A stretch of 64,000 bases of DNA from Kiloniellales bacterium (lineage in GTDB: Bacteria; Pseudomonadota; Alphaproteobacteria; Kiloniellales; JAKSBE01). Shown in pieces: positions 12,313 through 22,553 of this stretch; within the stretch, counting starts at the first letter, position 1; each line of letters starts with the position of its first letter. The notes below the pieces were generated by a model that was given only the letters and a program-made list of their open reading frames with translations, was not told the origin of the DNA and made no database searches. The position numbers were made by a program, and so were the translations under genes. The stretch covers positions 62,001 to 126,000 of the forward strand of contig JASJBF010000026.1 in NCBI GenBank assembly GCA_030066685.1, read 5' to 3'.

Positions 12313-13239
12313 TCACTCGATGATCAGCTCGTCCATTGAGCGCTTGATCTTGGCCTCCTCGATCTTGGGCTCGCGGCCGCCGCGCAGTATCGAGTTGCCC
12401 TCGTAGAGGGTGCGCTGGTCGATCGCCGGCGGGTTCAGCCAGTCGTCCTCCTTGATCTGGCCGCTCTGGCCGTAGGCGTCGAGCGCGTTCTGGTAGCAGG
12501 CCAGGCGCACCTGCTCCTCGGGGATACCGCGCTCCAGGGCCAGCTTGGCGGTCTTGGCCACGCCCAGAGGCTCGGAGATGCCCCAGTCGCAGGCCGAGTC
12601 GACGATGATCCGCTCGGCGCCGTACTGGCGCAGGATCTCGACCATGCGGGCGTTGCCCATCTTGGTGCTGGGATAGATCGAGAAGGCTGCCCAGAAGCCC
12701 CGTTCCAGGGTCTCCTGCACGGTCTCCTCGTTGTTGTGGTCGATGACCACCTTGGAGGGCGGCAGGCCGTGCTCCTCGCAGACGTCCATGGAGCGCGAGG
12801 TGCCGCGCTTCTTGTCCCGGTGCGGGGTGTGGATCATGACCGGCAGGTCGAGCTCCTTGGCCAGCTCGAGCTGCAGGCGAAAGTACTTGTCCTCCAGGTC
12901 GCTCTGCTCGTCGTAGCCGATCTCGCCGATGGCGACGACGCCCTCCTTCAGAGCGAAGCGCGGCAGGATCTCCATGACCTCCTCGGCCAGGGCCTCGTTG
13001 TTGGCCTCCTTGGAGTTCAGGCCGATGGTGCAGTAGTGGCGGATGCCGAACTGCCCGGCGCGAAAGCGCTCGAAGCCGACGATGTGGGAGAGGTAGTCGA
13101 TGTAGCTGCCGACGTTGGTCCGCGGCTGGCCGATCCAGAAGGCCGGCTCGATCACGGCGACGACGCCGGCCGCGGCCATGGCCTCGTAGTCGTCCGTGGT
13201 CCGCGAGATCATGTGGGTGTGCGGGTCGATGAACATCAT
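12313..13239 (-). CDS. eboB: EboB: TatD-family metal hydrolase of the ebo cluster
   Basis: A 308-residue TIM-barrel hydrolase. The metal ligands expected of TatD enzymes are present: HxH in IDPHTHM (H7, H9), Glu in AIGEIGYDE, His in MIHTPHRD, His in VVIDHNNEE and Asp in IIVDSACDWG. The IDPHTHMISRTTDDYEAM opening is typical of the TatD-like protein encoded beside eboA, rather than of general TatD DNases. The start at 13239 (MMFIDPH) is chosen because GGAGG lies ten bases ahead; an ATG at 13269 overlapping the eboA stop (ATGA) is possible and would imply coupling. It forms a two-gene operon with eboA. Its substrate in the Ebo process is unknown. Confidence 0.85.
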   Translation of the reverse strand: MMFIDPHTHMISRTTDDYEAMAAAGVVAVIEPAFWIGQPRTNVGSYIDYLSHIVGFERFRAGQFGIRHYCTIGLNSKEANNEALAEEVMEILPRFALKEGVVAIGEIGYDEQSDLEDKYFRLQLELAKELDLPVMIHTPHRDKKRGTSRSMDVCEEHGLPPSKVVIDHNNEETVQETLERGFWAAFSIYPSTKMGNARMVEILRQYGAERIIVDSACDWGISEPLGVAKTAKLALERGIPEEQVRLACYQNALDAYGQSGQIKEDDWLNPPAIDQRTLYEGNSILRGGREPKIEEAKIKRSMDELIIE

Positions 13240-13265
13240 GGTCCCACGTCCTCCAGCTTTGTCCG

Positions 13266-14144
13266 TCATGCCTGCGCTACCGGATCGTGCTCTAGGCGCT
13301 CCCAGGTCAGCGCGCCGCTTTCGATCTCCGCCGCGAGCGCGCCGGCGCCGGCCAGCAGCACCCGGGCCTCTGCCGCCGGGCTCGCGGCCAGCGCCAGGGC
13401 GGCAGCCCGGCGTTCGGTCTCATCCTCGCCGCGCAGCGCCCGCTCCAGGTCCGGCAGCAGCGAGGCCACGGCAAAGGGCCCGACGCAGCGCCAGAGCTCC
13501 GGCGAGACCGGCCGGCCGGCCGCCCAGCGCTCGTGGGCGTAGTCGATCAGGATCGCCGCCAGGGCCGGGTTGGCGCGCGCGTCCAGGCCCTGGATCGGGT
13601 GCAGGCTGCTGCCGATGAACAGGGCCTTGAGCACCATCTGGTTCCAGCGGTTCTCGTCAAAGCGCTCGCGCGGGAAGGGGTTGCGGTGGGCCACCGCCTC
13701 GAAGACCGCGCGCATGTTGGTCCTGAGCCCCTCGGCCGCCTGGTCCTCCAGCGCGGCGGGGTCGGGGTAGAGCGGCAGGCCGCGGTAGAGCGCGATGGCC
13801 TCGCCGACCTCGGCGCTGCCGCAGAGCGCGGTGAAGCGTTCGGCGAAGCCGGTGTTGGCGCCGGCAGCCGCTAGCAGAGCCAGGATCCGGGCCGCCTCGT
13901 CGACGCTCCAGCCCCGCGGGTCCCAGCCCGGCCGCGCCGCCTCGGCGGCTTCCAGGTCGGCCTCGGACAATGCCAGGTCATCCTTGCCCAGGCGCCGCGG
14001 GATCATGCCCAGGGCGATGTGCAGCTTGCGGTCGCTGGGGTCCTGCTGAAGGGCCTCGAGCTGCCCGGCGAGCCAGTCGAAGGCAGTCTCGGGCAGTTGT
14101 CGCTGCAGCCAGGTGCGCAGCAGCCTGCTCGGCTGTTCCGCCAT
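13266..14144 (-). CDS. eboA: EboA-domain protein (metabolite traffic)
   Basis: A 292-residue helical protein. The C-terminal half carries the block I associate with EboA: HRNPFPRERFDENRWNQM, then LKALFIGSSLHPIQGLDARA and LIDYAHERWAAGRPV. The ATG at 14144 follows a GGGGAGGAC ribosome-binding site; the upstream extension is non-coding repeat. It has no signal peptide or obvious catalytic motif. EboA is the marker protein of the six-gene ebo cluster, which in Nostoc is needed for precursor export during scytonemin synthesis; its molecular role is not known. eboB follows with a four-base overlap or a 26-base gap, depending on start. A divergent eboF begins 272 bases away. Confidence 0.85.
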   Translation of the reverse strand: MAEQPSRLLRTWLQRQLPETAFDWLAGQLEALQQDPSDRKLHIALGMIPRRLGKDDLALSEADLEAAEAARPGWDPRGWSVDEAARILALLAAAGANTGFAERFTALCGSAEVGEAIALYRGLPLYPDPAALEDQAAEGLRTNMRAVFEAVAHRNPFPRERFDENRWNQMVLKALFIGSSLHPIQGLDARANPALAAILIDYAHERWAAGRPVSPELWRCVGPFAVASLLPDLERALRGEDETERRAAALALAASPAAEARVLLAGAGALAAEIESGALTWERLEHDPVAQA

Positions 14145-14185
14145 GTCCTCCCCTTGCAGTCTCTTGGCCGCCGGGGTGCTGCGTC

Positions 14186-14296
14186 CCCTCACCCAGCTCC
14201 GGCTAGGGCTCGGCCTCCGGCCTCGCCAAGCCTCCACATCCCTCTCCCCGCGGGAGAGGGAGGGGCCCGCCGCGAAGCGGTGGGAGGGTGAGGGGC
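14186..14296. repeat. Intergenic repeat family B, copy 1
   Basis: The repeat has the outer pair CCCCTCACCCAGCTCCGG and GGGAGGGTGAGGGGC and an inner hairpin around CTCTCCC/GGGAGAG and GGGCCCGCCGC. Near-identical copies lie at 26887-26998 (opposite orientation) and 43765-43877. This one occupies most of the divergent eboA-eboF promoter region. Confidence 0.8.
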
Positions 14297-14416
14297 CGCT
14301 CGGGCAATCGATCGATCCTCGGCGGCGGTTTTCCCCAGTCTATAAGCCCCGGTTTCGATAGGAAAGCGCTTCGCCAGCCTTGCCTCCTGGCCCGGCCAGC
14401 CTCTAACGTCGCTGCC

Positions 14417-15799
14417 ATGCGGGACACCCTGGTCATCCTGGTCGTCGGGCTTTCGCCCTCCCTGATCGGCGAGCACACGCCCCACCTGAAGCGCCTGGCG
14501 GACGAGGGCGGGCTGCGGCCGCTCACCACGGTGCTGCCGGCGGTGACCTGCACGGCCCAATCCAGCCTGGTCACCGGCCTGCCGCCCTCGGGCCACGGCG
14601 CCGTCGCCAACGGCTGGTACTTCCGCGACCTCTCCGAGGTCTGGCTCTGGCGCCAGTCCAACCGCCTGGTCGGCGGCGAGAAGATCTGGGAAGCCGGCAA
14701 GGCCCGCGACCCGGACTTCACCTGCGCCAAGATGTTCTGGTGGTACAACATGTATTCGACGGCGGACTGGAGCGCGACGCCGCGCCCGATGTATCCCGCC
14801 GACGGCCGCAAGATCCCCGACCACTACGCCCACCCTTCCGAGCTGCGCGACGAGCTCAACGCCAAGCTCGGCATGTTCCCGCTGTTCAAGTTCTGGGGGC
14901 CGATGGCCGACATCGCCTCCAGCCAGTGGATCGCCGACGCCACCCGTCACGTGATGGAGACCCGCAAGCCGACCCTGACGCTCTGCTACCTGCCGCACCT
15001 CGACTACAACCTGCAGCGCCTGGGCCCGGACCTTTCCCAGCCGCGCCTGGTCAAGGATCTGCAGGAGATCGACGCGGTCTGCGGCGAGCTGATCGAGCCG
15101 GCCCGGCGCGACGGCAAGCGGATCGTCGTGGTCTCCGAGTACGGCATCACGCCGGTGACCGACGCCGTGCACATCAACCGCGCCCTGCGCGAGGCCGGCC
15201 TGATCCAGGTCCGGGTCGAGATGGGCCGCGAGCTGCTCGACCCCGGCGCCTCGACCGCCTTCGCCCTGGCCGACCACCAGCTCGCCCACGTCTACGTCCA
15301 GGCTTCGGAGCGCGTCGCCGAGGTCAAGACCCTGATCGAGGCCCTGGACGGGGTCGAGGTCGTGCTCGACGAGGAGGAGAAGCGCGCCCACGGCCTCGAT
15401 CATCCCCGCGCGGGCGAGCTGGTTGCGGTCTCCCGCGCCGACCGCTGGTTCAGCTACTACTACTGGCTCGACGACGAGCGCGCGCCGGACTTCGCGCGCA
15501 CCGTCGACATCCACCGCAAGCCCGGCTACGACCCGGTCGAGCTCTTCCTCGACCCGGCGCTCTCGGTCCCTATGCTCTCGGTCGCCTGGCGCCTGGCCAA
15601 GCGCAAGCTCGGCTTCCGCAGCCTGCTCGACGTGATCTCCCTGAAGGACACCCGGCTGGTCAAGGGCTCCCACGGCCGCCTCACCGACGATCCCGCCGAC
15701 GGCCCCCTGGTCATCTCCTCCCAGCCCGACCTCCTGCCCGAGGGCCCGGTCGCCGCGACCGCCTTCAAGCAGCTCGTTCTGGACCACGTCTTCGCCTAG
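14417..15799 (+). CDS. eboF: EboF: alkaline-phosphatase-superfamily protein of the ebo cluster
   Basis: A 460-residue protein with the type I phosphodiesterase/nucleotide pyrophosphatase fold. PAVTCTAQSSLVTGLPPSGH (about 41-60) matches the nucleophile-Thr region and keeps Thr44. Other metal-site positions look altered against the usual family pattern. The first Asp (xxDG) is Val10 (VVGLSPS). The D-x-x-x-H pair reads D-Y-N-L-Q. The DH pair reads SEYG. The last His survives in HRKPGYDP. The protein may therefore not be a normal two-metal phosphatase. There is no signal peptide, so it is predicted cytosolic. It is divergent from eboAB and separated from the eboDEC genes by about 3 kb. Confidence 0.85.
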   Translation: MRDTLVILVVGLSPSLIGEHTPHLKRLADEGGLRPLTTVLPAVTCTAQSSLVTGLPPSGHGAVANGWYFRDLSEVWLWRQSNRLVGGEKIWEAGKARDPDFTCAKMFWWYNMYSTADWSATPRPMYPADGRKIPDHYAHPSELRDELNAKLGMFPLFKFWGPMADIASSQWIADATRHVMETRKPTLTLCYLPHLDYNLQRLGPDLSQPRLVKDLQEIDAVCGELIEPARRDGKRIVVVSEYGITPVTDAVHINRALREAGLIQVRVEMGRELLDPGASTAFALADHQLAHVYVQASERVAEVKTLIEALDGVEVVLDEEEKRAHGLDHPRAGELVAVSRADRWFSYYYWLDDERAPDFARTVDIHRKPGYDPVELFLDPALSVPMLSVAWRLAKRKLGFRSLLDVISLKDTRLVKGSHGRLTDDPADGPLVISSQPDLLPEGPVAATAFKQLVLDHVFA

Positions 15800-16081
15800 C
15801 GCCAGATCGCGTCGGCCCGGACTTAAAAATGCGCAACATCACTGAAACAAGCCATCTCTAAGCTAGCAGTTTTGACATTGGATGCTTTGGGCCATGAGAG
15901 GCCTGCGACCAGGGCTCGCCTTGGGTCGCGGACGTAATTTGGGTCATGGCACGCGCAGGCAGGATCGTAGAGACGATCGGATATTAGTCTGCAGCGCAGA
16001 AGACCACGCCGGTAAGGTGCGCTTTCGAGGCCGGATGGTCCGGAACAGGAAGCGACTCCCGCCGCGCAAGGGAGGAAGAGG

Positions 16082-16735
16082 ATGAAGACAGCGATCAAGG
16101 TGGAGGAGGCCGCCGGGATGATCCCCGACGGCGCGGTTCTGCTCATCGGCGGCTTCATGGCGGTGGGCTCGCCCCTCCGCCTGATCGACGCCATCGTGGC
16201 GCGCGGTGCCAAAGACCTGACCGTCGTGGCCAACGACACCGCCATGCCAGGCAAGGGAATCGGCAAGCTGATCAGCTGCGGCGCGGTCTCGCGCGCCATC
16301 GTGTCCCACATCGGGCTCAACCCGGAGACCCAGGCCAAGATGATGGCCGGCGAGATCGAGGTCGAGCTGGTGCCCCAGGGCACCCTGGTCGAGCGGATCC
16401 GCGCCGGCGGCGTCGGCCTCGGCGGCGTGCTGACCGCGACCGGCCTGGGCACGACCGTGGAGGAGGGCAAGCAGATCGTCGAGACCGGCGGCCAGCGCTA
16501 CCTGCTCGAGACGCCGATCCGCGGCGATTTCGCCCTGGTCTCGGCGCGCCAGGCCGACTACGCGGGAAACCTGGAGTACTCGCTGACCGCCCAGAACTTC
16601 AATCCGGTCATGGCGCTCGCCGCCGACACCGTGATCGCGGAGCCGCAGACCATCGTCCCGGTCGGCGTGATCCCGCCCGACGCGGTCAAGACGCCGGGCG
16701 TGCTGGTCGACCACCTGCTCGAGAGGGCCGCCTGA
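16082..16735 (+). CDS. atoD: Acetate/acetoacetate CoA-transferase alpha subunit
   Basis: A 217-residue family I CoA-transferase subunit with close overall resemblance to Escherichia coli AtoD. Examples are GGFMAVGSPLRLIDAIV, VANDTAMPGKGIGKLISCG, SHIGLNPETQ, LVPQGTLVERIRAGGVGLGG and AQNFNPVMALAADTVI. With the beta subunit it moves CoA between an acyl-CoA donor and acetoacetate or a short-chain acid. A GGGAGGAAGAGG ribosome-binding site precedes the ATG, and a TTGACA hexamer at 15872-15877 could be part of its promoter, though the -10 is poor. The stop overlaps the next ATG (TGATG). It may activate acetoacetate formed by the BKACE enzyme at 34285, which is inference. A PcaI-type 3-oxoadipate CoA-transferase is the main alternative. 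Confidence 0.88.
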   Translation: MKTAIKVEEAAGMIPDGAVLLIGGFMAVGSPLRLIDAIVARGAKDLTVVANDTAMPGKGIGKLISCGAVSRAIVSHIGLNPETQAKMMAGEIEVELVPQGTLVERIRAGGVGLGGVLTATGLGTTVEEGKQIVETGGQRYLLETPIRGDFALVSARQADYAGNLEYSLTAQNFNPVMALAADTVIAEPQTIVPVGVIPPDAVKTPGVLVDHLLERAA

Positions 16736-17388
16736 TGGACGCCAAGGAAATCATCGCCCGCCGCGTCGCGCGGGAAATCCGGCCGAACACCCTGGTCAAC
16801 CTCGGCATCGGCCTGCCCAGCCTGGTCGCCAACCACCTGCCCGACGAGGTGCAGGTCTTCTTCCAGGCCGAGAACGGGGTCATCGGGCTCGGCGCCCGCC
16901 CGCCCGAGGGCATGGAGGACCCCAACCTCACCGACGCCGGCGGCGGCTTCGTGACCGCGGTGCCGGGCGCGGCCGCGATCGACAGCGCCATGAGCTTCGG
17001 CCTGATCCGCGGCGGCCACCTCGACATGACCGTGCTCGGCGGCCTTCAGGTCGACGAGCGCGGCTACCTCGCCAACTGGATGGTTCCGGGCAAGATGGTG
17101 CCCGGCATGGGCGGCGCCATGGACCTGGTGGCCGGCGCGAAGCGCGTCGTGGTGGCGATGGTCCACACTGCGAAGGGCAATCCCAAGATCGTGCCGGAGT
17201 GCAGCCTGCCGCTGACCGCGGTGCGCCGGGTCAGCCTGATCGTCACCGAGATGGCGGTGATCGAGCCGACCGCCGACGGACTGGTCCTGCGCGAGCGCGG
17301 CCCGGGCGTCTCGGTAGAGGAGATCGAGGCCGCGACCGCCGCCTCGCTCATCCAGCTGGGCGAGGTCCCGGAGATGACCCTGGCCTGA
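16735..17388 (+). CDS. atoA: Acetate/acetoacetate CoA-transferase beta subunit
   Basis: A 217-residue partner of AtoD. The catalytic Glu that forms the glutamyl-CoA intermediate is in FQAENGVIGLG (about E45), and the family block HLDMTVLGGLQVDERGYLAN and PGKMVPGMGGAMDLV is intact. Its length matches E. coli AtoA (about 216). The start overlaps the alpha-subunit stop by one base. This pair, the LysE gene and an orphan separate the two parts of the ebo set, but no metabolic reason for that placement is visible. Confidence 0.88.
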   Translation: MDAKEIIARRVAREIRPNTLVNLGIGLPSLVANHLPDEVQVFFQAENGVIGLGARPPEGMEDPNLTDAGGGFVTAVPGAAAIDSAMSFGLIRGGHLDMTVLGGLQVDERGYLANWMVPGKMVPGMGGAMDLVAGAKRVVVAMVHTAKGNPKIVPECSLPLTAVRRVSLIVTEMAVIEPTADGLVLRERGPGVSVEEIEAATAASLIQLGEVPEMTLA

Positions 17389-17484
17389 GCGCCGGCGGTC
17401 AAGGGTCAGGATGGCAAGTCGCGGCTGGACAGATGGCGGGAACCCGGTGTTTGCTGCGTGGGGACTGAGCTGGGGAGTCGCCGC

Positions 17485-18096
17485 ATGTCCATCGAGTTTC
17501 TGATCACGTCCTTCATCGTCGTCGTCGCGCCGGGGACCGGCGTGATCTACACCTTGTCCTGCGGCCTGGCGCGCGGCGCCCGGGCCAGCGTCGCCGCGGC
17601 GCTGGGCTGCACGGTGGGGATCCTCCCCCACGTGACGGCGGCGATCCTCGGGCTGGCGGCCCTGCTCCACACCAGCGCCCTCGCCTTCCAGGTCTTCAAG
17701 TATCTGGGGCTGGCCTATCTGCTCTACCTGGCCTGGACCACGCTCAAGGACAAGGAGTCGCTCTCGGTCGAGCCGGCGGAGGCGCGGCGCAGCGCGGTCA
17801 AGATCGCGGTTCGGGGCTTCCTGATCAACATCCTCAACCCCAAGCTCTCGATCTTCTTCCTGGCCTTCCTGCCCCAGTTCGTGCCCGCCGACGCCGCCCT
17901 GCCGCTGCTCCGCATGACCGGCCTTAGCGCCGTTTTCATGCTGATGACCTTCGTGGTCTTCGTCGGCTACGGCGTCTTCGCCGCGGCGGTCCGGCAGCAC
18001 GTCATCACCCGCCCCGCGGTCATGACCTGGCTGCGCCGCGCCTTCGCCGGTGCCTTCGCCGGCCTGGGCGTGAAGCTGGCGTTCTCGGAGCGGTGA
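17485..18096 (+). CDS. LysE/RhtB-family exporter
   Basis: A 203-residue inner-membrane protein with about six hydrophobic segments. The N-terminal VVVAPGTGVIYTLSCGLARG matches the LysE/RhtB signature (PGP-like turn followed by GxxRG), and FLINILNPKLSIFFLAFLPQ (about 114-133) is the second conserved family block. The ATG at 17485 is preceded by GGGGAG at seven bases; the frame's earlier start at 17458 is unsupported. Family members export amino acids or related small metabolites by proton exchange. It lies 96 bases after atoA on the same strand, within the interval between the two ebo gene groups, so an export role linked to ebo products is conceivable but unproven. Confidence 0.88.
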   Translation: MSIEFLITSFIVVVAPGTGVIYTLSCGLARGARASVAAALGCTVGILPHVTAAILGLAALLHTSALAFQVFKYLGLAYLLYLAWTTLKDKESLSVEPAEARRSAVKIAVRGFLINILNPKLSIFFLAFLPQFVPADAALPLLRMTGLSAVFMLMTFVVFVGYGVFAAAVRQHVITRPAVMTWLRRAFAGAFAGLGVKLAFSER

Positions 18097-18285
18097 GGCG
18101 GCCGACGTCTTGTGGCAGCTTGAATGAGGTGACCGAGCTCGCCCGGAGAAGTTTCCCGCCATCCTACGGGTCGCAGATCGGCAGTCCGCCGATCCGATCG
18201 AAGCTGCCAAACGTGACGGCATTCGATCGTTGTCTCGATCGGACTGCGGAACAAAAAGGGCAGCGAGCGTCTTGGGAGGATCTCG

Positions 18286-18885
18286 TCATCGACCCTGTTC
18301 CGGCTCGAAACGCCCGAGCACTTCGAAGTCGTGAGCGGTCGCAAGGACCGGGATTGGCTTGACCAGGTCTTGCGAGCGCAGCGTCTCCTCGATCAGAAGG
18401 ACAAACTTGCTCATCACCAAGTTCTGCGCCGTGTCGTAAAGGGCCTTGTAACTCTTGTCCTTCCAGATTTGCTCTTGGTGATACCAATCGAAGTCCTTCT
18501 GGACGCTCTCCAGGCCCGTCAAGGTCATGTCTGGGACGTCCGGCGATTGCCAATCGGAGAGCCAGTCCAGGTCGTTCTCGTCCCTCCTGTAGCGGTCGTA
18601 GCCAAAGAAGTCGACGTACCACCGATCGGGGTTGATGTCGAAGCCGTTCATCTCGAGGTAGACGGCCTCAATGCGGAGTTTGGTCTCACATAAAGATATG
18701 AATTCGTTGAGTCTTGCAGCCATCGAGGCCGTTGAATTCGAGAAGCTGTGCCCGACCAAGCTCGCAAAGGGGCCGCGTTTGTCGGTCGTAATGTAGTCTT
18801 CGAGTTGCCTGACAGCCCCTAGGTGGTCTTTGGCCTGGAAGCGGTCGAAAGTCAGAACCCACGGATTCCATTCGTTTTCGCTCAC
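18286..18885 (-). CDS. Uncharacterised soluble protein (orphan)
   Basis: A 199-residue protein I do not recognise, beginning with GTG at 18885 behind an AGGGAGTC ribosome-binding site. It is acidic and rich in Asp, Tyr and Trp (GYDRYRRDENDLDWLSDW, about 94-111) and has no signal peptide, membrane span or known motif. Codon use is less GC-biased than in the ebo or ato genes, like the orphans at 11335 and 57943. It is flanked by the LysE gene (convergent) and eboC (same strand, 161 bases away). It probably belongs to an accessory insertion between the ebo groups. Confidence 0.6.
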   Translation of the reverse strand: MSENEWNPWVLTFDRFQAKDHLGAVRQLEDYITTDKRGPFASLVGHSFSNSTASMAARLNEFISLCETKLRIEAVYLEMNGFDINPDRWYVDFFGYDRYRRDENDLDWLSDWQSPDVPDMTLTGLESVQKDFDWYHQEQIWKDKSYKALYDTAQNLVMSKFVLLIEETLRSQDLVKPIPVLATAHDFEVLGRFEPEQGR

Positions 18886-19046
18886 GGAACGGACTCCCTT
18901 GTCAGCAGCAGGTCATCGAAGGTCGGGCAATAGGCTCGCTCATGGACCCTATTGGGTCCTCACGACGGCCACGAGCTTATACGCATTTCGCGGTCGATCA
19001 GATAGCTGCCCGTGATCGGAAGTCTTCGCGCCTTGGAAATTCGCCT

Positions 19047-19919
19047 TTAAGTCCCCGCCACGTAGCGCTGCAAACCCAGCGTGACGAAGAACCCGAGCAG
19101 GGCCAGGCCGGCCAGGCCGAGGTTGCCGGTGCCGGCGATCAGCATGGCGTCGTAGAGCGAGATCCCGGCGATCAGGCTGATCACGGCGCGCGGGATGTCG
19201 CCGGGGCCGCGGCGGCGGATCAGCCAGAGCGCCAGCGCCATCCAGGCGGCCAGGGGCAGCAGGTAGGCTATCACCAAGGGATAGGCGCCGGCCAGGAACA
19301 GGCCGTAGGCGAGCGGCGCGGCCAGGAAGAGCAGCGGCCAGAGGTTCTTGACTTCGCCCAGGTTCTCCTGCTTGGCGACATAGGTCAGGCCGATCACGTA
19401 GCAGAGCAGCAGGGCGCCGCCGAGGATCACCGCCGGCGGCAGGGGCAGGGCGATGGCCAGGCCGGTGGCGACGTAGACGAGGAAGCGGCAGGCGCCCATG
19501 ACCACCGGGCTCAAGGGGTTGGCCTTGTGGTACCAGTCGTAGAACACGATGGCCGCGGCCAGCGCCAGGCCGCCGAGCAGCGGCCAGACCCCGGTGCCGC
19601 CTTCGACCCCGAAGCCGGTCCAGGCCAGGCAGGCGACGCCCAGGCCCAGCATGCCGAAGCCCAGGGCGTAGACCGTGGCGCGGGAGACCCGGCCGGCCGG
19701 GATCGGCCGCTCCGGGCGCTCGCGGGCGTCGATCTCGGCGTCGAAGGCGTCGTTGAGATACATGCCGCCGACGTAGAAAAGGGTCAGCCCGGCCAGCAGC
19801 GCCGGGACCCGATCGTCGCTCAGCGCTCCGCCGGCCAGCACCAGCGCCGCCAGCATGTTGGTCCAGACCGTCGGCAGGTTCGACACCCGCCCCAAGCTCA
19901 AGGCATCGCGCAAGGTCAT
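19047..19919 (-). CDS. eboC: EboC: UbiA-like prenyltransferase of the ebo cluster
   Basis: A 290-residue inner-membrane protein with eight or nine hydrophobic segments and the UbiA fold. The first Asp-rich motif is intact (MYLNDAFDAEIDARERPERP, about 54-73). The second, normally DxxxD, reads FYDWYHKANPLSPVVMGACR (about 127-146), a His/Lys-containing variant I associate with EboC. The opening LGRVSNLPTVWTNMLAAL is also typical of EboC and its relatives. Members of the superfamily join polyprenyl diphosphates to an acceptor in the membrane; the EboC reaction is unknown. It lies on the same strand as eboD and eboE, separated from eboE by 232 bases containing a repeat. Confidence 0.87.
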   Translation of the reverse strand: MTLRDALSLGRVSNLPTVWTNMLAALVLAGGALSDDRVPALLAGLTLFYVGGMYLNDAFDAEIDARERPERPIPAGRVSRATVYALGFGMLGLGVACLAWTGFGVEGGTGVWPLLGGLALAAAIVFYDWYHKANPLSPVVMGACRFLVYVATGLAIALPLPPAVILGGALLLCYVIGLTYVAKQENLGEVKNLWPLLFLAAPLAYGLFLAGAYPLVIAYLLPLAAWMALALWLIRRRGPGDIPRAVISLIAGISLYDAMLIAGTGNLGLAGLALLGFFVTLGLQRYVAGT

Positions 19920-19966
19920 GGGGCGGTGGCCAGGGAAACGTCGACGTGAGGGACGGACTCAACTAG

Positions 19967-20095
19967 CCCTCCCCCCTTGAGGGGGAGGGTGCGGGTGGGG
20001 GGTATCGCGAAGCGACCAGGCGATATCGAGATGTTCTGTGCGGCCTTACGGCCGCCACCCCCACCTCTGTCCTCCCCCCTCAAGGGGGAGGAAGG
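19967..20095. repeat. Intergenic repeat family C, copy 1
   Basis: Pyrimidine-rich and purine-rich arms CCCTCCCCCCTTGAGGGGGA and CTCCCCCCTCAAGGGGGAGG each form a hairpin and flank a central palindrome (GGCCTTACGGCC). Related copies lie at 33335-33442, 34121-34243 and 55591-55693. This copy separates eboE from eboC on the same strand. Confidence 0.75.
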
Positions 20096-20151
20096 ACGCC
20101 GTTGTCGCCTCGGGAGTCCAAGAGGCCGATCCGCGCGGACACGCAGACTCA

Positions 20152-21336
20152 TCACGCCAGCTGCTCCCGCACCCAGTTGAGCTCGCGGGCGATGGCGGTG
20201 CCGACCTCGGCCTGGCGGTAGCGCTCGGGCAGGACGTCCCAGGTGTAGGTCTCGACCTCCAGCTGGTCGGTCACCGGCTCGGCCCGATGGAGCGCGAGGA
20301 TCTCGCGCAGGAAGGCCTGCGTGGTGCCGAAGTCCTGCATCGCCTCCAGGAAGATCGGCACGTGGAAGTGGATCCGCCACTCCCGCCCCCCTGCCCCTTC
20401 GGCCTGCGCCAGGGCCTCGGGCAGGTCGAGGTAGCGGGTCAGGCCCTCGGGCCCGCGCTCGACCGTCTGGTGCAGGTAGACCGGCTCGGCGAAGGGCGCC
20501 AGCTGGTCGCGGGTCTCGGCGCCGACCGATGGAATGCGCAGGGCGGCGCTGAGCTGCAGCTTGGCGATGCGGATCCCGGCGGCGCGCAGCCGGGCCAGGC
20601 TGTCGCGCGGGTCCTCGAACTCCACCGCGGCATGGCAGACGTCGTAGCAGACCCCCAGGTGGCGGCGCAGCGCGGCCTCGGCCTGGGGCTCGGACAGGCC
20701 GCTCAGGGCGGCGAGCCGGGCGGCGGCCGCGGCGGAGAAGAGCCGGCCCTCGAAGTAGTCGACCGTCTCGGCGATCGTTTCTAGAAAGCAGCAGGGCTCC
20801 GGCTCCAGGGCCAGGACGATGTGCCGGCCGCGCCGGTCTTCGATGGCGACCAGCTCGGCGACGTGGCGGATCAGGTTCTCGGTGATCGCCTCCACGCGTC
20901 CTTCCGCCCAGGGCTTGAAGGTCCCAGGCACGGTCGAGACGCTGCCCTCCAGGCCCTCCGGCAGGAAGATCGCCAGGATCTCGGCCAGGCGGTTGCTGTA
21001 GAGCAGGCGTTCCTCCTCGCTCCAGTCCGGGCGGTAGGCGCCCTCCTTGACGCTGGCGCCGTGGAAGGTGCCGTAGGGGAAGCCGTTCAGGGTGAAGACG
21101 TAGTAGGGCCCCTCGTCGAGCAGGGCCTGCAGCTCCTCGAGGGCCGCCGGCTGGATCAGCGCCTCGGCGGCGGCCGCCGAGAGCCGCAGCCCCAGGCCCA
21201 AGGGCGCCGCCGGCGCGACCGCCGCCTTGACCGTCGGCAGGTGCCGGCGCAGGCCGTCGAGGACCTCGGGCCAGGTCTCTCCGGGGTGGATGTTGCTGCA
21301 GTAGGTGAGCTGGCCCAGCCCGCCGTCCAGGCGCAT
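20152..21336 (-). CDS. eboE: EboE: TIM-barrel metabolite traffic protein
   Basis: A 394-residue protein of the xylose-isomerase-like TIM-barrel group. It opens with GGLGQLTYCSNIHPGETW, a start I associate with EboE, followed by VFTLNGFPYGTFHGASVKEG, VLALEPEPCCFLE and REWRIHFHVPIF. The conserved Glu, His and Asp residues (EPEP, CYDVCHAAVEFED, HFHVPIF) could bind a divalent metal. The ATG at 21336 overlaps the eboD stop (TGATG), so translation is coupled. The longer open frame to 21789 is a shadow of eboD. It presumably acts on a sugar-like intermediate together with EboD; the substrate is unknown. Confidence 0.87.
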   Translation of the reverse strand: MRLDGGLGQLTYCSNIHPGETWPEVLDGLRRHLPTVKAAVAPAAPLGLGLRLSAAAAEALIQPAALEELQALLDEGPYYVFTLNGFPYGTFHGASVKEGAYRPDWSEEERLLYSNRLAEILAIFLPEGLEGSVSTVPGTFKPWAEGRVEAITENLIRHVAELVAIEDRRGRHIVLALEPEPCCFLETIAETVDYFEGRLFSAAAAARLAALSGLSEPQAEAALRRHLGVCYDVCHAAVEFEDPRDSLARLRAAGIRIAKLQLSAALRIPSVGAETRDQLAPFAEPVYLHQTVERGPEGLTRYLDLPEALAQAEGAGGREWRIHFHVPIFLEAMQDFGTTQAFLREILALHRAEPVTDQLEVETYTWDVLPERYRQAEVGTAIARELNWVREQLA

Positions 21337-22553
21337 CAATCGGCGGTCCGCTGCTTCAGCCAGGCGATGGCCTCGGCGACCAGGGCCTCGTCCATCTCGT
21401 GCACCTCGACGCCGGTGCCGATGCCGGCCAGCAGGGTGATGGTCAGCTCGCCGCCCAGGTGCTCCCGGAAGTCGCGCAGACCCTGCAGGACCGCGTGGCG
21501 GCCCTCGGCCTCGCGCTTGTCGAGCGCCGCGTGCCAGAGCTTGAAGCCCAGGTGCTCGAGCAGGAAGCAGATCCGCTCTTCCTCGGCCGGCTTCAAGAGG
21601 CCGCGCAGCACCGAGTAGCGGGCGTCTAGGGCCAGGCCGATGGCCACCGCCTCGCCGTGGCGCAGGTGGTGGCGAGTCATGGCCTCCAGCTTGTGCGCCG
21701 CCCAGTGGCCGTAGTCCAGGGGCCGGGCGCTGCCGGTCTCGAAGGGGTCGCCGCCCTGGGCGATCTGGTGCATGTGCAGCTCGGCGCAACGCCGGATCAG
21801 CTGGGCCATGGCCGCGCCCTCGAAGAGCGCCAAGTCGTCGGCGTTGCGCTCCAGCCAGGCGAAGAACTCGCCGTCGCGGATCAGCGCGACCTTAACCGCC
21901 TCGGCCATGCCGGCGATCTTGTCGCGGGCCGGCAGGGCGTCGATCATCTCCGCGTCGTTGAGGACCGCGAAGGGCGGCGCGAAGGTGCCGACGAAGTTCT
22001 TCTGGCCGTAGAGGTTGACCCCGTTCTTGACCCCGACGCCGGAATCGTTCTGGGCCAGCACCGTGGTCGGCACCCGGATGTGGCGCACGCCGCGGTGGGT
22101 GGTCGCCGCGACCAGGCCGACCGCGTCCAGCAGGGCGCCGCCGCCGACGCCGATGACGTAGGAATGCCGGTCGATGTGATGCTCGAACAGGGCCTGCTGC
22201 ATCTGCTCGACGAAGTAGAGCTCGGACTTCAGGCGCTCGCCGCCCGGCACCACGATGGGCGCGGCGACCAGCTCCATCCGGCCGACCCAGGCCTCGGCGT
22301 AGGCGGCGATCTCCCCGGCCAGCTCCGGGCGCACCGCCAGCAGCCCGTCGTCCAGGAAGACCAGGCAGCGGTGGCGCCGCGCGGGCTCCAGGCGCGCCAG
22401 GGCTTCAGCCAGGACCGGGTTGGCCGGGTCGAAGAGCGCGCGGGTGAAATGGACCGGGTAGTCGAAGGCAACGGCGAAGCGCTGCCAGTGGACCCCGTCC
22501 TGCATCGGGTCTTGCGTCCGGGACGGCTCCGTCCCCTCGAGGGTCTTCGTCAT
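21336..22553 (-). CDS. eboD: EboD: 3-dehydroquinate-synthase-like sugar phosphate cyclase
   Basis: A 405-residue cytosolic enzyme of the sugar phosphate cyclase superfamily. NAD-binding motifs are PGGERLKSE, GVGGGALLDAVGLVAATTHR and PTTVLAQNDSGVGVKNGVN. Candidate metal ligands are Glu in GMAEAVKVALI, His in LDYGHWAAHKLE and His in RHGEAVAIGL. The long N-terminal extension and the QNDSGVGVKNGVN form distinguish it from the housekeeping AroB, which is expected elsewhere in the genome. A start at 22505 (MQDGVHW) is also possible. It heads the eboD-eboE-eboC group and is divergent from the TMEM220 gene. Confidence 0.87.
   Translation of the reverse strand: MTKTLEGTEPSRTQDPMQDGVHWQRFAVAFDYPVHFTRALFDPANPVLAEALARLEPARRHRCLVFLDDGLLAVRPELAGEIAAYAEAWVGRMELVAAPIVVPGGERLKSELYFVEQMQQALFEHHIDRHSYVIGVGGGALLDAVGLVAATTHRGVRHIRVPTTVLAQNDSGVGVKNGVNLYGQKNFVGTFAPPFAVLNDAEMIDALPARDKIAGMAEAVKVALIRDGEFFAWLERNADDLALFEGAAMAQLIRRCAELHMHQIAQGGDPFETGSARPLDYGHWAAHKLEAMTRHHLRHGEAVAIGLALDARYSVLRGLLKPAEEERICFLLEHLGFKLWHAALDKREAEGRHAVLQGLRDFREHLGGELTITLLAGIGTGVEVHEMDEALVAEAIAWLKQRTAD

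Follow-up and report, generated by a model that had tools for sequence, protein, structure and literature searches.

The 460-residue product of eboF, encoded in the window (the whole stretch of 64,000 nucleotides analysed here), has most probably lost the classical two-zinc site of the nucleotide pyrophosphatases/phosphodiesterases (NPPs), a loss strongly supported by three concordant alignments. The ebo locus spans many phyla and has been tied to metabolite translocation, EboF being required for the export of a sunscreen precursor in a cyanobacterium (PMC6282210): deletion of eboF in Nostoc punctiforme abolished scytonemin and left the monomer in the cytoplasm, as did the other ebo deletions. 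EboF was assigned to PF01663, with hydrolysis of a phosphate-containing substrate inferred (Yurchenko, 2016), its homology with pyrophosphatases was noted (Klicki, 2018), and published sketches of the ebo pathway let it hydrolyse a phosphate bond, even perhaps as a prenyl diphosphate phosphatase. Both papers concern the same gene family and locus, and the missing ligands are not mentioned in their accessible parts; nor was a report of them found in the partly accessible open-access literature (further sources: PMC5133447, PMC9235831, PMC6891707, PMC7018646, PMC7576196). The annotation of EboF reads phosphodiesterase or pyrophosphatase, a vague label that the ligand loss turns into a sharply testable question. 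If the two-zinc site is absent, the EboF step in ebo models needs rethinking.

Family membership and predicted fold

The protein matched the Pfam profile PF01663 over residues 4-372 with 221.9 bits (gathering cut-off 23) and is 53-75% identical to eight relatives, annotated ebo loci among them. Annotated EboF-like records carry the label 'nucleotide pyrophosphatase/phosphodiesterase family protein', and NCBIfam held no fitting model, its best match being a weak one to phosphonoacetate hydrolase (31.7 bits; cut-off 407.55). An AlphaFold2 model computed with 63 homologues as input gave a mean pLDDT of 95.7 and a pTM of 0.94, and the best Foldseek matches to it were XacNPP, PhnA and ENPPs. Alignment of the model with XacNPP (2gsn_A) by VIA-align led to a Z of 31.1 and an rmsd of 2.7 over 333 aligned residues with 22% identity; for ENPP5 and PhnA, Z was 31.2 and 29.2 respectively. 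EboF is hence predicted to be an alkaline-phosphatase-like protein of the NPP fold. Its first modelled strand starts at residue 4, leaving no space for a leader peptide, whereas a canonical relative from the same phylum (L008) opens with what we read as a hydrophobic stretch. With XacNPP and ENPP1-7 it shares the fold (Z about 28-31), the position of the Thr nucleophile, the phosphate Asn, the first Asp of DxxxH and the last His, but it differs in the replacement of four of the seven zinc ligands (by V, Q, E and Y), an insert of its own and the missing leader. PhnA, the second-best fold group and source of the best NCBIfam match, has canonical metal ligands, unlike EboF.

Table 1. Features of eboF and of the surrounding ebo genes (window coordinates)
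Feature	Position	Strand	Basis
eboF, 460-residue NPP-fold protein	14417..15799	+	ORF, PF01663 match, structure model
V10 codon, replaces first metal-binding Asp	14444..14446	+	profile-2gsn, hhalign, conservation
T44 codon, kept nucleophile Thr	14546..14548	+	profile-2gsn, hhalign, conservation
N65 codon, kept phosphate-contacting Asn	14609..14611	+	profile-2gsn, hhalign, conservation
D196-Y-N-L-Q200, Asp kept, Gln replaces His of DxxxH	15002..15016	+	profile-2gsn, hhalign, conservation
E241-Y242, replaces metal-binding Asp-His pair	15137..15142	+	profile-2gsn, hhalign, conservation
D286-H287-Q288-x-x-H291, EboF signature; NGG in canonical members	15272..15289	+	hhalign, conservation
Insertion specific to EboF, roughly residues 346-411	15452..15649	+	gap in canonical profile
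H366-R-K368-P-G370-Y-D372-P-V-E375 motif within insertion	15512..15541	+	conservation
H419 codon, kept last metal-binding His (GSHG)	15671..15673	+	alignments, raw tails
eboB, TatD-like	12313..13269	-	family match; ligands kept
eboA, start uncertain	13266..14237	-	family match (from ORF residue 38)
eboC, UbiA-like prenyltransferase	19047..19919	-	105.8 bits, below model cut-off 250
eboE, TIM barrel; start from family match, open frame to 21789	20152..21309	-	462.1 bits, cut-off 250
eboD, 3-dehydroquinate-synthase-like sugar phosphate cyclase	21336..22553	-	PRK06203 590.1 bits, cut-off 333

Metal-ligand positions across EboF homologues

Seven zinc ligands, D, T, D, H, D, H and H, are the standard for a catalytic NPP (PMC6052110). 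Equivalent residues in EboF were assigned from an alignment of an EboF profile with XacNPP (2gsn), from an hhalign comparison between 63 EboF sequences and nine canonical ones (prob 99.9, E 1.3e-32) and from MAFFT with 76 EboF and 13 canonical members. All three paired V10, T44, N65, D196, Q200, E241, Y242 and H419 with the canonical D, T, N, D, H, D, H and H, which were found in 13/13 canonical sequences by MAFFT. The zinc-ligand set of EboF reads V, T, D, Q, E, Y, H, with three of seven kept (T44, D196 and H419); at the nucleophile-side zinc, an Asp and the His are gone and the remaining Asp has become Glu. A preliminary description, noting VVGLSPS, DYNLQ and SEYG in the open frame, had proposed that phosphatase metal ligands were lost with the Thr and the last His retained. 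These letters are correct, Val, Gln and Glu-Tyr do fall into the ligand columns of the solved XacNPP, the retention of T44 and H419 (in GSHG) was confirmed by alignment, and the ligand loss itself is strongly supported. That it is general for EboF, as was also considered, is likewise strongly supported by 174 distinct homologues compared with the 13 canonical sequences.

Homologues were collected from annotated plasmids (52 matching records), from genome contigs (80 loci kept of 581 relatives) and from sampled genomes, with matches in 4/299 genomes of the own phylum (including the window's own and canonical L008), 21/198 of Bacteroidota (at E 1e-8, canonical proteins included), 8/194 of Cyanobacteria and 162/199 of Planctomycetota, from which 40 lower-scoring loci were taken. 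This led to 188 sequences above 300 bits, of which 174 distinct ones were used once the window itself (L001, L005), partial sequences (L091, L096, L097), a degenerate one (L124) and 14 identical sequences had been left out. Since the peptide patterns behind the 80 genome loci avoid positions 10, 196, 200, 241, 242 and 419, these columns are unselected; the patterns do cover N65 and D286-H291.

D196, Q200, Y242 and the phosphate-contacting N65 were present in 174/174 sequences and the nucleophile T44 in 173/174. E241 was found in 169/174 (otherwise three D, one G and one S) and V10 in 159/174, the remainder being A or P and never D, and with these changes some members are left without any nucleophile-side metal site. 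H419 was aligned in 164/174, and all 10 gaps turned out to be SHG in the raw tails. The 136 high-scoring sequences, Nostoc rows among them, all carry D196, Q200, E241 and Y242. Conservation of at least 95% was reached at 6/8 catalytic-equivalent positions compared with 65/460 overall (p 1.4e-4), and positions R123, D129 and K132 are not constant among divergent members. In a tree of 89 rows (every fourth of those scoring at least 600 bits and each one under that score), one clade took in all 76 EboF rows with a support of 0.78, the root being arbitrary. No intermediates with some canonical ligands were seen along the score gradients of Bacteroidota and Cyanobacteria: bacteroidotal scores fell from 684 bits (EboF type) to a single 302 (L124) and then to at most 52 bits, the last canonical, and all 9 cyanobacterial matches reached at least 773 bits. 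A local mutation or pseudogene was ruled out by the open frame, a dN/dS of 0.16 against the same-genus L095 (428/460 residues identical) and the sharing of the changes by the 174 distinct homologues. Sampling of close relatives as the source of the pattern is countered by lower-scoring Planctomycetota members, down to 388 bits, with D196, Q200 and Y242.

Further residues are invariant in the 174 sequences, namely D286, H287 and Q288, N254, and K368, G370, D372 and E375 from an insertion of about 65 residues that is missing from the canonical profile in hhalign and carries an HxKxGxDPxE motif; its H366 is kept in 172/174. D286, H287, H291, H366, D372 and E375 are candidates for alternative metal residues. 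Together with this motif, the near-invariant T44, Q200, E241 and Y242 suggest a working rather than a decayed site; at the sequence level, this points to a fixed and rebuilt site and no decaying copy.

The degenerate bacteroidotal relative (L124:1492-2874, + strand) has S10, S44, S196, P200, D241 and E242 and no SHG, with DHQIAHVYV kept. No ebo genes were seen within its 4.1 kb, and a second, non-catalytic use of the fold is possible there. EboF also occurred in two loci titled as MAGs of Rickettsia typhi and Akkermansia muciniphila (L043 and L086), which are possibly misassigned bins.

The ebo locus and its dispersed form in Planctomycetota

In the window, eboF lies near eboA-E (12313-22553), with eboA and eboB adjoining it on the opposite strand, and the gene order is repeated in several relatives. 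H17, H19, E116, H147, H178 and D228 of EboB are kept in 75/75 sequences, N56, D57, D60 and D64 of EboC in 36/37, and E218, H283, H287 and H299 of EboD in 56/56; we take these to be the residues that bind metal or catalyse in the respective families. With EboB, EboC and EboD retaining their expected sites, EboF stands apart.

A 3-oxoacid CoA-transferase subunit pair (16082-17388, + strand) lies between eboF and eboC; in the same-genus locus L248, eboF, a LysE-type exporter and eboC stand in line and no CoA-transferase match was found, suggesting a lineage-specific insertion of the pair into the ebo locus. The prenyltransferase adjoining eboF in Ketogulonicigenium vulgare WSH-001 is annotated as two pieces (L013:10374-11221, - strand), and eboC may be broken there. 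A Streptomyces plasmid (L010:3232-10416) encodes an inositol-3-phosphate synthase in the expected place of EboD, along with a UbiA-like prenyltransferase, an isomerase, EboA, TatD, EboE and EboF. Similarly, a putative inositol-3-phosphate synthase, as we read it, is found near EboF in 2/40 Planctomycetota loci, and a gene family with a UbiA-like member is common to 6/40 (the L185 member being 35% identical to EboC). The cyclitol synthase of ebo loci therefore seems exchangeable, and together these loci suggest that the substrate of the constant ebo core is a cyclitol phosphate, no matter which enzyme makes it.

In the 162 matching Planctomycetota genomes, EboF is mostly distant from other ebo genes (L185-L224). 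The flanks of 28 long loci below 600 bits held no EboE or EboD, four EboC and one EboB, which hinted that EboF acts alone in this phylum. This idea was dropped when whole-genome searches of 29 EboF-bearing genomes, drawn from those of the 162 that had been fetched, detected EboB in 28/29 and EboE over the cut-off in 19/29. Among 20 genomes without EboF (the listed part of 37), EboB was clear in 2/20, with a weak TatD match in one more. Co-occurrence of EboB and EboF gave a Fisher p of 2.9e-10, or 2.9e-9 when the weak match is counted, both uncorrected for relatedness. EboF and EboB go together even without gene linkage, and the sampled Planctomycetota genomes show a near-universal, dispersed form of the ebo pathway.

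Possible functions of EboF

As the fold is kept and most zinc-ligand positions are replaced by equally conserved residues, the function of EboF is probably not an ordinary zinc-driven phosphate hydrolysis. The phenotype of the eboF deletion and the substitutions in the Nostoc rows, taken together, indicate that what the cell needs in vivo is a protein lacking the classical ligands. On balance we favour, with some reserve, a re-tooled, metal-poor enzyme that acts on a phosphorylated cyclitol or prenyl intermediate. Such a cytosolic protein of NPP fold would have had its two-zinc centre swapped for a fixed metal-poor site before it spread over many phyla. From the fold and the gene neighbours, the old phosphate pocket (Thr44, Asn65) may still hold a polar intermediate, a cyclitol or prenyl-cyclitol that is probably phosphorylated and presumably made by EboD (or the inositol-phosphate synthase) and EboC. 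Asp196, Gln200, Glu241, Tyr242 and His419 would bind this intermediate and give acid-base groups without two zincs, with His366, Lys368, Asp372 and Glu375 of the insert joining the pocket, and the EboF step would be a transfer, an isomerisation or a metal-free cleavage in the ebo pathway instead of a zinc-driven phosphodiester hydrolysis. Only tentatively do we go further and propose that EboF is fully metal-independent, with Gln, Glu, Tyr and HxKxGxDPxE in place of the two-zinc centre, and catalyses a transfer, an isomerisation or an elimination, none of them hydrolytic, on a cyclitol-phosphate or prenyl-cyclitol intermediate of the ebo pathway. We know of no non-hydrolytic, metal-independent chemistry of that kind in the alkaline phosphatase superfamily.

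The metal-poor enzyme is rated no higher because of YejM/PbgA, which was first said to lack catalytic residues and later reported to be a Mg-dependent phosphatase. It resembles EboF in the superfamily fold, in changed catalytic residues and in the kept Thr, but it is a membrane protein of the LtaS/EptA kind with the metal residues by the Thr retained, the side that EboF has lost. This precedent, the retention of T44, N65, D196 and H419 and the several additional invariant Asp, His and Glu residues would fit an EboF that is still a metal-dependent phosphohydrolase, with one metal on D196/Q200/H419 or a new site made of D286/H287/H291 and H366/D372/E375. We nevertheless find this doubtful, as the nucleophile-side site is lost (V10 and Y242, with E241 changed to G or S in two members), and in the one-metal LtaS, EptA and YejM the metal is bound at the nucleophile Thr, on just the side missing here. 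To our knowledge, one-metal members in general (compare the sulfatases) hold it on that side.

A non-catalytic binding, carrier or scaffold protein (pseudoenzyme) that holds either an ebo intermediate or one of the other Ebo proteins appears rather improbable to us: a near-invariant nucleophile Thr and near-invariant replacement polar residues across phyla exceed what pure binding seems to need. The loss of four of seven ligands and the published link of the locus to metabolite translocation speak for it, as does the relative that has lost most of the pocket (L124), whose DHQIAHVYV indicates that part of the surface may have another use. The 'binding or transfer' role put forward in the preliminary description is plausible and compatible with the sequences. 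Very little weight is left for a misalignment that hides the true metal residues at other points of the same strands. The solved NPPs share only about 22% identity with EboF, and the C-terminal piece is weak in the profile-to-PDB alignment (1.1 bits); against this, the three methods are concordant at each position, the spacings are equal (21 residues from Thr to Asn, 4 from Asp to Gln or His), and the flanking residues GL, GP, S..G and GSHG are in common.
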